NCBI GenBank assembly: GCA_017448795.1
Contig: JAFSKV010000066.1
Span: 1-64,000 of the forward strand
Source: Synergistaceae bacterium
GTDB lineage: Bacteria; Synergistota; Synergistia; Synergistales; Aminobacteriaceae
Length of the DNA: 64,000 nucleotides
Direction: 5' to 3'
Part shown: positions 20,607-26,084 of the stretch, piece after piece
How positions within the stretch are numbered: position 1 is the stretch's first letter
Layout: each line of letters begins with the position of its first letter
Position numbers and translations under genes: made by a program
The notes under the pieces: model-generated
Database searches by the model: none
Seen by the model: only the letters and a program-made list of their open reading frames with translations
Told to the model about the DNA's origin: nothing

Positions 20607-21011
20607 TTACATGGCAATCTTCACCGCACACCACACCAGCGCAAGCCCCATCACAACATTGAACGGCCTGTAATACCGCACAAGGAATCTCTGCAGCAAT
20701 CCCCCGGCAGTCCCCCACATGCACCAGCTCACAGCACTCACCGCGATATGCCACGCAAGCCACAGGATATATGCCGCCCCGAAATACTTCAGCCAGCCAA
20801 CAACACCGGGCATGTACTGCGCAAGCCCGCTGCATGACAGTATCACCATCGCCATCACAGCCGTGAACCCCGCAAATATCCCCCAGATTACCCGGCTTCC
20901 CTTCCTCCAGCCGTATGTGCTGACCGAGTAAAGCGACATGAGATTATTCGGGCCCGGCGTGAATGTCGTGATTAACGCGTAAGGCATGTATGACAGCACA
21001 GTATCAAGCAT
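20607..21011 (-). CDS. LysE/RhtB-type exporter, internally shortened
   Basis: A 134-residue membrane protein with the LysE/RhtB N-terminus: TPGPNNLMSLYSVSTYG, WRKGSRVIWGIFAG, and a third helix ending GAAYILWLAWH. Usual members have about 200 residues. Here the third helix runs directly into SWCMWGTAGGLLQRF and a family-like end (YRPFNVVMGLALVWCAVK), so about 65 central residues seem missing. The ATG at 21011 follows ggagg (21023-21027). It diverges from the cysteine operon and RhtB relatives export cysteine and other amino acids, so a former cysteine exporter is plausible. Function of the short form is doubtful. Confidence 0.7.
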   Translation of the reverse strand: MLDTVLSYMPYALITTFTPGPNNLMSLYSVSTYGWRKGSRVIWGIFAGFTAVMAMVILSCSGLAQYMPGVVGWLKYFGAAYILWLAWHIAVSAVSWCMWGTAGGLLQRFLVRYYRPFNVVMGLALVWCAVKIAM

Positions 21012-21064
21012 GAAATTACCAGCCTCCTTTGAGTCCGGGCAACTATAACACAAAAACAGGCCTA

Positions 21065-21093
21065 TTGATTTAGTGTGCTATTCGTGGCATAAT
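21065..21093 (+). promoter_or_regulatory. Promoter of the cysteine biosynthesis operon
   Basis: TTGATT (21065-21070), 17 bases, CATAAT (21088-21093) preceded by TGG, an extended -10. Start near 21100, so the mRNA carries about 195 nt before cysK, including the leader peptide. Confidence 0.72.
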
Positions 21094-21126
21094 TCCCCGT
21101 AACAATTCCCGGAGAGGTGAAACAGT

Positions 21127-21195
21127 ATGACAGACCGCGAAATTTTCACAGCAACCTTTGAGGCTGTATGCTGTTGCCGCCCCCTCACACTGTAA
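21127..21195 (+). CDS. Cysteine-triplet leader peptide
   Basis: A 22-codon frame, ATG 21127 to TAA 21195, with a good ribosome site (ggagaggtg, 21111-21119). It encodes MTDREIFTATFEAV, then three consecutive Cys codons (TGC TGT TGC, 21169-21177), then RPLTL. It lies between the operon promoter and cysK. Runs of the end-product amino acid in a tiny ORF are the hallmark of attenuation leaders, and Cys-rich uORFs are known before cysteine genes in mycobacteria. Scarcity of Cys-tRNA would stall the ribosome here and change the fold of the downstream leader. Function is inferred from position and composition. Confidence 0.75.
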   Translation: MTDREIFTATFEAVCCCRPLTL

Positions 21196-21294
21196 TTCCG
21201 CGCAGGCACATTCCATCCGTCAACCAGAATTTCACCGCACGGCCTGGCACGTCATCAGGCAGAATATCACGCACACACAAAGGAGAGTATCATC
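21196..21294 (+). promoter_or_regulatory. cysK leader RNA with mutually exclusive short pairings
   Basis: GCCTG (21242-21246) can pair with CAGGC upstream (21203-21207) or downstream (21256-21260). CCTTTG inside the leader ORF (21156-21161 region) is complementary to CAAAGG of the cysK ribosome site (about 21278-21283). No intrinsic terminator is visible, so control of translation seems likelier than transcription attenuation. Confidence 0.4.
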
Positions 21295-22227
21295 ATGCCG
21301 AAAGTTTACACGTCAATTGACCAGCTCATAGGACGCACGCCCCTTCTCGAACTCACGCGCATAGAGAAGCATTACGGTCTGTCCGCGAAAATCCTCGCCA
21401 AGCTCGAATACTTCAACCCCGCCGGAAGCGTCAAGGACAGAATCGCAAAAGCCATGATAGACGACGCAGAAGCACAAGGACTCCTCAAGCCCGGAAGCGT
21501 CATCATCGAACCCACAAGCGGCAACACAGGAATCGGACTGTCATCCGTCGCGGCAACAAGAGGCTACAGAATCATCATCGTTATGCCTGAAACTATGTCG
21601 GTTGAACGCAGGAAGCTCATGAAGGCTTACGGGGCTGAGTTAGTCCTCACAGAAGGAAGCAGGGGAATGCGCGGGGCAATCGAGAAAGCCTCGGAGCTTG
21701 CGGCGGAAATCCCGGACTCCTTCATCGCCGGGCAGTTCGTCAACCCGTCAAACCCCAAAGTCCACCGCGAGACCACAGGCCCGGAAATCTGGCAGGACAC
21801 AGGCGGCCATGTCGACATCTTCATTGCAGGCGTTGGGACCGGCGGGACTCTCACAGGAACGGGAGAATACCTGCGCTCGGTCAACCCTGACGTGAGGATT
21901 ATCGCGGTCGAGCCGTCCGGGTCTCCTGTGCTGTCAGCGGGGCGTTCCGGGAGCCACAAGATTCAGGGCATAGGCGCGGGGTTCGTCCCTGAAGTCCTCA
22001 ACACGAGGCTCTACAGCGAGATATTCACCGTGAACGATGACGACGCGATTAACACCGGGAAACTGACCGGGAAACTTGAGGGCTTCCTTGTGGGGATTTC
22101 GTCGGGGGCTGCGCTTTTCGCCGCGGTTGAGACAGCAAAGAAGCCTGAGAACGCCGGGAAGAACATTGTCGTGATACTTCCTGACACGGGGGAGCGTTAT
22201 TTGTCGACGGCACTTTTCGCGGAATAG
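21295..22227 (+). CDS. cysK: Cysteine synthase (O-acetylserine sulfhydrylase)
   Basis: A 310-residue PLP enzyme that makes cysteine from O-acetylserine and sulfide. Features: IGRTPLLEL, the PLP lysine in [11 protein letters not shown], the substrate loop [10 protein letters not shown], the phosphate-binding loop [10 protein letters not shown], the [10 protein letters not shown] segment, and the PLP-N1 Ser in GISSGAA. Length is typical. The aaggag site precedes the ATG. It is followed after 3 bases by serine acetyltransferase, giving the complete two-step pathway, both under the Cys-codon leader. Confidence 0.95.
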
Positions 22228-22230
22228 GCC

Positions 22231-23031
22231 ATGAATGTTGATGAGGCTTTGCGGTCAGCAGAAGAAGGACTGATGTTCTTTGCCGAGAAGGATGAGACTG
22301 ACTACAACGGCATACGTGAGAATGTGGAGGGGGCATTCCGTCATCTTCTGGCGGCTATGTTCCCTTCCCACGTCAACCCTGAAGGACGGAGCATCGCTGA
22401 GAACCTGAGGCTTGCTGCTGACGGGCTGAGGGCGGCTTTGTCCAGGCTTGCTGACGGTGAGAGGGCTGAACGCTTCACGGCCATGCTCATATCACGTCTG
22501 CCGGAAATCAGGCGGGTGTTGTGGACCGACATTGTGGCGGCGTATCAAGGCGACCCTGCGGCGAAGAGCCCGGATGAGATTATCCTTGCTTACCCGGCAT
22601 TCACGGCAATCAGCGCGTACAGGGTGGCACATGAGCTTTACGCGGTGAACGCCCCTTTAGTCCCAAGAATCATAACAGAGTATGCTCACAGGCTGACGGG
22701 TATAGACATTCATCCGGGCGCGGCAATAGGTGAGTATTTCTTCATCGATCACGGTACGGGAGTCGTTATCGGCGAGACCTCGACAATCGGCCACAGGGTC
22801 AAGATATACCAGAATGTTACGATAGGAGCGAAGAGCTTTGATGTTGCGCCCGACGGATCACTAGTGAAGGGCATAAAGCGTCATCCAGACATAGGGAACA
22901 ACGTTGTGATTTACGCGGGGGCTACAATATTGGGAGGCCAAACGGTCATCGGTGATGACTGCGTGATAGGGGGGAATGTGTGGCTGACTCACTCGGTGAA
23001 GGCCGGGCGGGTTGTGCTGAATGAGCGGTGA
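22231..23031 (+). CDS. cysE: Serine O-acetyltransferase (EpsC/CysE type)
   Basis: A 266-residue hexapeptide-repeat acetyltransferase that makes O-acetylserine from serine and acetyl-CoA. A long N-terminal helical domain (about 1-150, with AAYQGDPAAKSPDEIILAYP) precedes the left-handed beta helix: GIDIHPGAAIGEYFFIDHGTGVVIGET with the catalytic His and Asp region, then VKIYQNVTIGAKS and IGNNVVIYAGATILGG. The C-terminus lacks the usual end-product inhibition tail of E. coli CysE, consistent with control by the leader instead. It partners CysK, its usual complex partner. Confidence 0.93.
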   Translation: MNVDEALRSAEEGLMFFAEKDETDYNGIRENVEGAFRHLLAAMFPSHVNPEGRSIAENLRLAADGLRAALSRLADGERAERFTAMLISRLPEIRRVLWTDIVAAYQGDPAAKSPDEIILAYPAFTAISAYRVAHELYAVNAPLVPRIITEYAHRLTGIDIHPGAAIGEYFFIDHGTGVVIGETSTIGHRVKIYQNVTIGAKSFDVAPDGSLVKGIKRHPDIGNNVVIYAGATILGGQTVIGDDCVIGGNVWLTHSVKAGRVVLNER

Positions 23032-23040
23032 GGAAAAGAG

Positions 23041-23090
23041 TATAATTCTTGCCGGGAATGCGGATGTAAGAGTCTGCTCCCGGCAATTTG
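23041..23090 (+). promoter_or_regulatory. TATAAT box and strong hairpin upstream of ToxN-like gene
   Basis: TATAAT at 23041-23046, followed by a perfect 9-bp stem TTGCCGGGA (23049-23057) with TCCCGGCAA (23078-23086), loop 20, then TTTGATT. In type III systems a leaky terminator sits between antitoxin repeats and toxin. Here there is no repeat array, so the hairpin could be that terminator, the cysE terminator, or a single-copy antitoxin. Confidence 0.5.
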
Positions 23091-23113
23091 ATTCTCAGGA
23101 GGAAGTTATATTC

Positions 23114-23677
23114 ATGAATGACAGCGGATATTCTTTATGGTTCTACAATATTGACGTTGACTATATCAAGTTCCTTCACAGCGTTGACGGCAAGGTTCAG
23201 TACTCGCAGGGCAGTGATTACAGCTCAAAGCCTTTTCTAGGCGGTTTCAGTATTGACGGCATAAGATACTTCGTCCCGCTTTCATCACCCAAGAGCAAGC
23301 ATATACACTGGGACTATGAGGGAGATACTTACATCATGATTCATGAGACCATCAGGGAGGAAGACAGGAAGCCCAAAAACGTAATCAGGCGGCAGACGGA
23401 TGAAGGCCTCGAAAAAATACTAGCCATACTCTATTTCAACAACATGATTCCCGCCCCTGAAGGATGCTATGAGCCTGTCGGGGATTTCATCAACATTAGG
23501 GATGATTTGTATTATGACCTTCTACGCAAAGAATACTATTTCTGCCTGAATATTGACGGCAAGATAGCCTGCAAAGCCAGGAAGCTGCATGACGCGCAGA
23601 AAGAAGCAGGCGTAACGGATGAATTGTGCTGCGACTTCATGAGGCTGGAAAAAGCAATGAGAGAATATCAACGTTAG
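23114..23677 (+). CDS. ToxN/AbiQ-like type III toxin endoribonuclease
   Basis: A 187-residue protein resembling ToxN/AbiQ/CptN toxins, which cut RNA and are held in check by a repetitive RNA antitoxin. Family-like segments: LWFYNIDVDYIKFLHSVDGK near the N-terminus, GGFSIDGIRYFVPLSSPKSKH containing the Ser-Ser-Pro-Lys catalytic-type motif, and a later IRDDLYYDLLRKEYYF helix. The ATG at 23114 has aggagg at 23097-23102. No tandem repeat antitoxin is seen upstream. Such systems can abort phage infection or act as addiction modules. Family call is by eye and moderate. Confidence 0.7.
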   Translation: MNDSGYSLWFYNIDVDYIKFLHSVDGKVQYSQGSDYSSKPFLGGFSIDGIRYFVPLSSPKSKHIHWDYEGDTYIMIHETIREEDRKPKNVIRRQTDEGLEKILAILYFNNMIPAPEGCYEPVGDFINIRDDLYYDLLRKEYYFCLNIDGKIACKARKLHDAQKEAGVTDELCCDFMRLEKAMREYQR

Positions 23678-24493: not shown

Positions 24494-25300
24494 TTAACCC
24501 CTCCTGCCCCTGCTGAGCCAGTGTTCCAGCTTGCTCACAAGTTTAGTCAGCACCATCACCATAATCAGGTAGATTATCGCTACCATGACTAGGGGCTGTG
24601 AGTGTTCGAGCGTCAAGGCCTGTATGTTTTGCCCGGCGCGTGTCAGGTCATCAATCCCGATATACCCGGCTATTGATGTCTCCTTCAGCAGGGCTATGAA
24701 CTCGTTGAACAGCATCGGGACGACATTTCGCAGAGCCTGGGGGAGAATTACACGCCGCATTGATGTCCCGTAAGTCAGGCCGAGAGATCTTGCCGCCTCC
24801 ATCTGGCCGGGGTCAATGGACTCGATTCCTCCCCTGAAGATTTCCGCCACATATGCCCCGGAGTTAAGCCCGAACGCTAATATCGCTATGTACTGGGTGT
24901 TGAGGTCTCTTGCGCTGGCAAAAATCGTGAAGTTCCAGATGAGCAGCTGAACCATTGCAGGAGTCCCGCGCAGGACGGTGATATAAGTCTCGGCCAGCTT
25001 GTTGAGGACGGGGATGTGCATTCCGCCGTTGTGGGCAACACGTATCACGCTCAGAATCAGCCCGACAATCACGCCTATCACAGTCGCACCGGCCGTCATG
25101 AAGAGCGTCGACTTCAGCCCGTCAACAAGCATCATGTAGCGGTCATCCTTGATGAAGTTCTGGTAGAAGCGGCGGTTGAAATCACTCCATGCCTCCACCG
25201 TAAAGAACCCCGACTCCCACAGCGCATAGACCAAGAACGCCCCGACGAACCCAAGCAGTATATCGCCGCGGCCCGCTCCGGGATAGCTCTTACTTCTCAT
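24494..25300 (-). CDS. Amino-acid ABC transporter permease
   Basis: A 268-residue HisM/GlnP-type permease with an N-terminal extra helix and about 4-5 further helices. The polar amino-acid family block is clear: [20 protein letters not shown] and the EAA loop [20 protein letters not shown], followed by [15 protein letters not shown]. The ATG at 25300 overlaps the end of the binding-protein gene by 11 bases; an ATG 6 bases upstream is also possible. Usually works as a homodimer when only one permease gene is present, as here. Confidence 0.93.
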
Positions 25301-26084
25301 AGTCATCCGCCCGGACAAGAGCGACCTGCTTCGTCCCGTCAACATAATCGTCCGAGAAGTCCATGTTCTCCCTGCGCTCGTCGTTCACGGTGATTCCCGC
25401 GCAAATCATGTCGACTTTTCCGGTTGATACAGCTGTCGGAAGAGCGTCAAAGTTCATGTTGATGATGACGAGTTCCCTGCCGAGCTTCTTGGCGATGTGG
25501 GCGCACATCTCAACGTCGATTCCGATGAAGCCGCTTCCTACTTTCAGCTCATAGGGCGCGAATCCTGCCTCAGTCCCGACATAGAGCTTGCCGCCCTCAG
25601 CTCCCTTGTTGAAGTCAATATCTCCCGGCTTGACCGCTGAATAATCGCCGTCCAAGTATCTCGCGAAAATAGCGGCCATTGTCCCGTCAGCCTTCATCTC
25701 AGCGAGTATCTTGTTGACCTGCGAAACAAGCTCTGTGTTGCCTTTCTTGAAGCCGATCGCGTAGCTCTCGACGCTCAGAGCCTCGTCCATGATTGCGAGT
25801 CCCTCGACCTCGTTCACGAATCTCTTGGCGGGCATCTCGTCCATGACTATTGCGCGGACTTTCTCCTGCTTGAGGGCGGCCACTGCGTCAACGTACTTCT
25901 CGTAGGTCGTGAGGAGCTCGCCCTTCTTGTCGCCCAAAAGATCCTCGGCGATGTACTGGCCTGTTGTGCCTCTCTGTGCGGCGAGGCGTTCACCTTTGAG
26001 GTCGGCGGGGGATTTGAGCTTCCCGTCAGCAGAAGCGCAGGAGCAGAACGCAAGAACGAGCATCAACGCAAAAACTTTTCTCAT
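25290..26084 (-). CDS. Amino-acid-binding protein with circularly permuted lobes
   Basis: A 264-residue exported binding protein (Sec signal 1-19). In family 3 binding proteins the mature chain starts with KLxVGTEAxFxPYE and later shows LKGxxxAxQRGTTG. Here the order is reversed. Residues about 22-150 carry the second lobe (SPADLKGERLAAQRGTTG, VRAIVMDEMPAKRF, YAIGFKKGNTEL, KILAEMKADGTM). Residues about 166-262 carry the first lobe (KLYVGTEAGFAPYELK, GFIGIDVEMCAHIAKKLG, AGITVNDERRENMDFSDDYV). The chain ends at the inter-lobe hinge. It is fully intact and sits in a complete ABC operon, so it is probably functional. Ligand likely a polar amino acid. Confidence 0.88.
   Translation of the reverse strand: MRKVFALMLVLAFCSCASADGKLKSPADLKGERLAAQRGTTGQYIAEDLLGDKKGELLTTYEKYVDAVAALKQEKVRAIVMDEMPAKRFVNEVEGLAIMDEALSVESYAIGFKKGNTELVSQVNKILAEMKADGTMAAIFARYLDGDYSAVKPGDIDFNKGAEGGKLYVGTEAGFAPYELKVGSGFIGIDVEMCAHIAKKLGRELVIINMNFDALPTAVSTGKVDMICAGITVNDERRENMDFSDDYVDGTKQVALVRADDYEK

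Follow-up and report, generated by a model that had tools for sequence, protein, structure and literature searches.

Cys codons upstream of cysK

The locus raises the question of whether a short reading frame containing three consecutive Cys codons, located ahead of the cysteine synthesis genes cysK and cysE, senses cysteine and controls both genes, and by what means this control could be exerted. The term "window" refers here to the whole stretch of DNA that was analysed, 64,000 nucleotides in length. The following features of the window form the basis of the analysis.

21065..21093, + strand: promoter, sigma-70-like, with -35 TTGATT, a 17-nt spacer and an extended -10 element TG-g-CATAAT
21114..21120, + strand: leader ribosome site GAGGTGA, within the conserved block GAGGTGAAACAGTATG
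21127..21195, + strand: leader ORF of 22 codons, with an ATG start, the peptide MTDREIFTATFEAVCCCRPLTL and the stop codon TAA
21169..21177, + strand: three Cys codons in a row, TGC TGT TGC (codons 15-17), where the ribosome is proposed to stall
21280..21287, + strand: cysK ribosome site AAGGAGAG
21295..22227, + strand: cysK, cysteine synthase A (TIGR01139, 441.8 bits, cut-off 350.95)
22231..23031, + strand: cysE, serine acetyltransferase without a C-terminal tail (best NCBIfam matches cysE and EpsC, both below curated cut-offs)

The original prediction had placed a 22-codon ORF with a good ribosome site and the codons TGC TGT TGC between the promoter at 21065-21093 and cysK, and all of these elements were confirmed. 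The leader ORF matched the RNA model R1 with an E value of 2.3e-12, the training set of this model having included the sequence of the window. When the 64-kb window was searched against Rfam, no family (T-box, SAM or other riboswitch) was found at the leader, and the only match was a tRNA elsewhere.

Conservation of the leader within the genus

Conservation of the leader was studied in 43 species-level genomes of the genus, from which the regions upstream of cysK were extracted. Leaders were recognised in 27 of these regions, and a covariance model built on them added one more. The leader was thus present in 28 of the 43 genomes. In five genomes, cysK was missing or cut at a contig end and could not be assessed, and ten species had cysK without the leader. 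The significant matches of the model were all located directly upstream of cysK, one per genome, apart from one genome in which the stretch was duplicated and two matches were obtained. Searching 188 genomes of the phylum with the same model gave no further matches at E <= 0.001. Because the leader occurred in 28 of the 43 genus genomes, as a single copy at each locus immediately ahead of cysK, its presence there is beyond chance.

Runs of two to six Cys codons, usually three to five, were found at the equivalent place in all aligned leaders of the genus and were in frame with the conserved GAGGTGAAACAGTATG start in every case. The ribosome site block GAGGTGAAACAGTATG itself was almost invariant. 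The Cys run, the frame and the start context were therefore the strongly kept parts of the alignment, and the N-terminal residues of the peptide were variable. In a tree of CysK proteins, the leader-bearing species formed one clade with approximately three losses. A promoter-like element preceded cysK in many relatives, including several without the leader, and several of the species that had lost the leader retained a similar promoter directly ahead of cysK. A pattern scan of the window's own genome and of the genus, aimed at other Cys leaders built in this way, returned the cysK leader alone, the other matches being in unrelated sequence. Public records of the genus matching the leader were those of Synergistaceae or Synergistales from the rumen or other ruminant sources (goat rumen, goat abomasum, red deer).

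It had been proposed that relatives be searched for Cys-rich ORFs ahead of cysK, with their absence as the main ground for abandoning the idea. The Cys leader ORF was kept ahead of cysK in 28 of the 38 genus genomes with an assessable cysK start, and Cys leaders of another build were found in five sister genera. Since the leader is conserved, this ground falls away, and from the comparison of sequences a cysteine-sensing leader is very probably the best explanation of the locus.

One leader differed in its surroundings. In L025 (contig C89 of genome G016), approximately three tandem copies of a repeat of approximately 110 nt lay between the Cys leader and cysK. Each copy ended in the ribosome-site-like sequence AGGAGGAATTTATTT, and the leader was consequently located approximately 580 nt upstream of cysK.

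Predicted pairing of the leader start with the Cys codons

Folding of the genus alignment with RNAalifold predicted a hairpin, designated P1, in which the Cys codons pair back to the ribosome site and start codon of the same leader. Its arms in the window, delimited by RNAalifold and duplex analysis, were as follows.

21115..21133, + strand: 5' arm of P1, comprising the leader ribosome site, the start codon and the next codon
21163..21182, + strand: 3' arm of P1, comprising the Cys codons and their flanks

P1 was predicted in all 27 leaders that were folded. The first register given by RNAalifold was one of several permitted by the Cys repeat, and slid registers also scored; for this reason, duplex and exposure tests were relied upon. 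The cognate arms had a duplex energy of -20.4 kcal/mol, as compared with -16.8 kcal/mol for arms swapped between species (permutation p 5e-5), and 12 cells of the alignment were altered on both sides of a pair, as compared with 5.2 in shuffles; the relatedness of the species contributes to the difference in duplex energy, and neither the permutation nor the shuffling removes its effect fully. Pair 18-75 was G-C in 23 cases and A-U in three. Compensation was illustrated by ACAAGCAA with UUGCUUGU in L012 and by ACAACAAUGCGU with ACGUGUUGUUGU in L145.

The predicted structure depended on the position of the ribosome, and covariation supported it. On average over the 27 leaders, the unpaired fraction of the leader ribosome site and AUG was 0.13 in the full leader, with P1 closed, and 0.45 when a ribosome occupied the Cys codons, with P1 open; the value was lower in the full leader in all 27 cases. 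It was 0.48 before the Cys codons were transcribed and 0.35 in dinucleotide shuffles. In the window, the leader ribosome site was unpaired to 0.17 in the full leader. Shuffling of codons within the leaders gave an exposure of 0.36, as compared with 0.18 observed, and the observed value was the lower one in 26 of the 27 leaders. P1 is thus a well supported hairpin in terms of prediction and covariation.

The Cys run might instead serve the peptide, which would be a small thiol- or metal-binding product rather than a sensor; this is hardly credible. The protein sequence does keep its Cys runs, but the remaining residues show little conservation, the peptide is encoded only ahead of cysK, and both third positions and neighbouring codons track the RNA pairing of P1. 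The role of the leader as a sensor is strongly supported by the sequence comparison.

Proposed mechanism

The locus combines a translatable short ORF that has its own ribosome site with a run of codons for the end product ahead of the operon, the arrangement that characterises ribosome-mediated attenuators. The reading preferred here, to which a probability of roughly 0.62 is assigned, is that the leader is a cysteine-responsive, ribosome-mediated attenuator of cysK-cysE in which P1 is the switch and Rho the readout. According to this model, the first ribosome would start on the leader before the Cys codons are transcribed. With plentiful Cys-tRNA, it would finish the ORF, P1 would close and translation of the leader would cease; the C-rich untranslated spacer would then be open to Rho, and transcription would stop ahead of cysK. 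With scarce Cys-tRNA, the ribosome would wait on the Cys codons and hold P1 open, ribosome loading would continue, the start of the spacer would be covered and cysK-cysE would be expressed.

A more general description of the same layout is put forward tentatively, at somewhat less than even odds. It would be a self-locking attenuator, in which the Cys codons lock the leader's own ribosome site, so that translation of the leader is switched off after a completed round and remains possible only while a ribosome is starved at these codons. The operon would be read out by the loss of ribosome cover, without a terminator or a mask on the next gene.

Proposed readout of ribosome occupancy

The region between the leader and cysK contained the following features.

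21196..21279, + strand: untranslated spacer of approximately 85 nt, G-poor and C-rich, a candidate Rho-loading stretch
21242..21260, + strand: small hairpin GCCTG...CAGGC within the spacer, with no U tract in the window

In the genus, the distance from the leader stop codon to the cysK start was 67-187 nt and was longer in L025. The hairpin GCCTG...CAGGC was kept, with some compensating changes, in many leaders of the genus and was absent in others. An intrinsic terminator was not conserved: terminator-like sites were found in five of the 27 leaders, one of them convincing. C exceeded G in the spacers of all 27 genus leaders, which is a modest bias, since approximately 9% of control stretches of the same length reached the value of the median leader and approximately 4% of stretches of the window reached the window's own value. 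A rho gene was found in the genome. Because no terminator was conserved, the spacers contained more C than G and a rho gene was present, Rho is favoured as the reader of ribosome occupancy. As judged from sequence, Rho would be the most likely readout and is also the least certain step of the model, with mRNA decay as the main alternative. It should be noted against Rho that the cover given by a ribosome on the Cys codons would reach no further than the first part of the spacer.

If decay were the readout, the Cys-codon sensor, P1 and the stalled ribosome would act by shielding the 5' end of the mRNA from RNases. Ribosome loading at the extreme 5' end is what the conserved switch acts on, and protection of this end fits such a switch as well as Rho does. 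However, no particular RNase site was indicated by the sequence, and Rho accords slightly better with a spacer rich in C and poor in G, so that control through mRNA stability is considered unlikely.

Control of translation was also considered, as in mycobacteria, where Cys leaders are reported, as cited in PMC13236596, to act by this mode: the Cys-codon region would hide the cysK ribosome site until a ribosome stalls and exposes it. The window has CCTTTG in the ORF, the complement of CAAAGG at the cysK site, and the original prediction included a pairing between these two regions. However, this pairing was not favoured, the cysK site being already 66% free in the window, and the CCTTTG match was absent from relatives. 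Pairing between the Cys region and the cysK site averaged approximately 0.1 bp, and when the leaders were folded with a ribosome on the Cys codons, as had been suggested, exposure of the cysK site barely changed in most of the 27. Masking of the cysK site is therefore distinctly unlikely; by prediction, the leader ORF does not mask the ribosome site of the next gene as a mycobacterial-type translation attenuator would.

Classical transcription attenuation of the trp/his type, with an intrinsic terminator and an antiterminator, would find its terminator in the hairpin of the GCCTGA-TCAGGC type present in the spacer of many leaders, which is followed by a U tract in L007. Against it, terminator-like sites were as scarce as stated above, the hairpin was missing in several leaders and no antiterminator pairing was conserved when P1 was blocked. 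With neither a conserved competitor structure nor a conserved hairpin plus U tract, a trp/his-type attenuator is very unlikely. The alternative pairings that had been predicted for the trailing part of the leader were likewise not conserved. Of the cysteine-sensing attenuation originally predicted, the sensor is well supported, its ORF, frame, start context and Cys run being conserved, and the mechanism based on those pairings is not supported.

Cys leaders in sister genera and more distant relatives

In five sister genera of the family, the orthologous cysK was preceded by a Cys leader of another build, for example MRSFLRKLLRLQFCSGQMCCCHRF... The motif SGQMCC was common to several of these leaders, and their stop codon was mostly located just 24-50 nt before cysK. 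P1 was not consistent among them, and behaviour like that in the genus was predicted in L248 only. It follows that P1 is not required for every Cys leader of the family and that it is not an automatic outcome of a Cys-rich leader.

In order-level relatives belonging to other families, no Cys leader was found in the examined stretches upstream of the best cysK match. Where the upstream gene was readable in these relatives (L155-L172), the best cysK match lay directly downstream of a cysE-like gene. This gene order is the reverse of the cysK-cysE order of the window, and the cysE-like product has a coiled C-terminal extension.

A phylum-wide pattern scan gave mainly scattered matches, and reversed-pattern controls matched too. 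When all GTDB species were scanned for the start context, scattered single matches were obtained outside Synergistaceae/Synergistales; the titles of their records had no common pattern, and from these titles the matches were taken as chance.

Relation to known systems

Cys leader peptides have been predicted upstream of cys operons and cbs in Mycobacterium, Propionibacterium and Bifidobacterium, where no obvious terminator was seen and Rho was suggested (PMC1262725). Mycobacterial polycysteine short ORFs have been reported as translation attenuators (Canestrari et al. 2020, as cited in PMC13236596). In Rhodobacterales, the motif uORFC-8-2 upstream of cysS combines a Cys uORF and an intrinsic terminator and has been read as ribosome-mediated attenuation (PMC8632094). 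The view that Cys leaders are known in actinobacteria, on which the original prediction drew, is accordingly right and incomplete, since Rhodobacterales have such a uORF before cysS as well.

The leader studied here resembles the actinobacterial ones in being a short ORF with a Cys run near its stop codon, cysteine synthesis genes downstream and no obvious terminator. It differs from them in belonging to another phylum, in its Shine-Dalgarno site (the ORFs of mycobacteria have been described as leaderless), and in the predicted pairing of the ribosome site with the Cys codons, of which no description was found for theirs. With uORFC-8-2, which has tandem Cys codons at approximately codons 14-15, it shares the location of such codons in a stem. 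However, uORFC-8-2 is defined by cysS, two stems and a terminal U run, and has two Cys codons and a terminator with that run; the present leader precedes cysK-cysE, usually has three to five Cys codons, lacks a conserved U run and terminator, and is not a member of that motif.

In E. coli tnaC, too, Rho acts on an untranslated stretch behind a leader ORF, the arrangement proposed here; tnaC, however, stalls with tryptophan bound, by an effect of the nascent peptide, whereas starvation at Cys codons is proposed for the present leader. The trp/his attenuators of enteric bacteria similarly rely on a ribosome that waits at end-product codons and thereby sets RNA folding. Here, in contrast, there is no conserved terminator/antiterminator pair, and the conserved fold joins the leader start with the regulatory codons. 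For trpL of enteric bacteria, there has been discussion of a leader that sequesters its own ribosome site.

A limited literature search returned no description of a Cys-codon leader in Synergistota, and on this basis the lineage and the anatomy of P1 appear to be new. If the proposed model is true, codon-sensing control of cysteine synthesis reaches a phylum for which no earlier description was found, among gut bacteria represented here mainly by metagenomes, and the known layouts are extended by one whose start site is locked by the sensing codons of the same leader. P1 gives a sharp prediction for reporter fusions, and natural deletion controls are available in the ten genus species whose cysK lacks the leader.

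Products of the operon and neighbouring genes

The CysE protein had been predicted to lack the inhibitory C-terminal tail. As a matter of anatomy, this was borne out by structure matches and by comparison of the C-terminus across the genus: the closest solved structures were 3f1x, 9u39 and 6lcn, and in most of the genus the protein ends just past the left-handed beta-helix (HSVKAGRVVLNER), whereas chains of the E. coli type run on far past the aligned portion. An absent tail might, as the original prediction suggested, make the leader the main point of feedback.

The divergent gene at 20607-21053 (- strand) resembles the cysteine/O-acetylserine exporter family, with PRK10323 as the closest member. 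Its product is approximately 47 residues shorter than its relatives, owing to an in-frame gap midway along the sequence. The gene may be non-functional here, or the gap may be an effect of assembly.

At its end, cysE is overlapped by a gene (23021-23677, + strand) with a match to ToxN, known from type III toxin-antitoxin systems (Pfam PF13958, E 9e-35). Further downstream, a gene for a solute-binding protein of the SBP_bac_3 family (25290-26084, - strand) adjoins a cystine-type ABC transporter. The best family match of this protein begins at residue 168 and a second matched stretch lies near the N-terminus; the SBP_bac_3 domain looks circularly permuted or fused.
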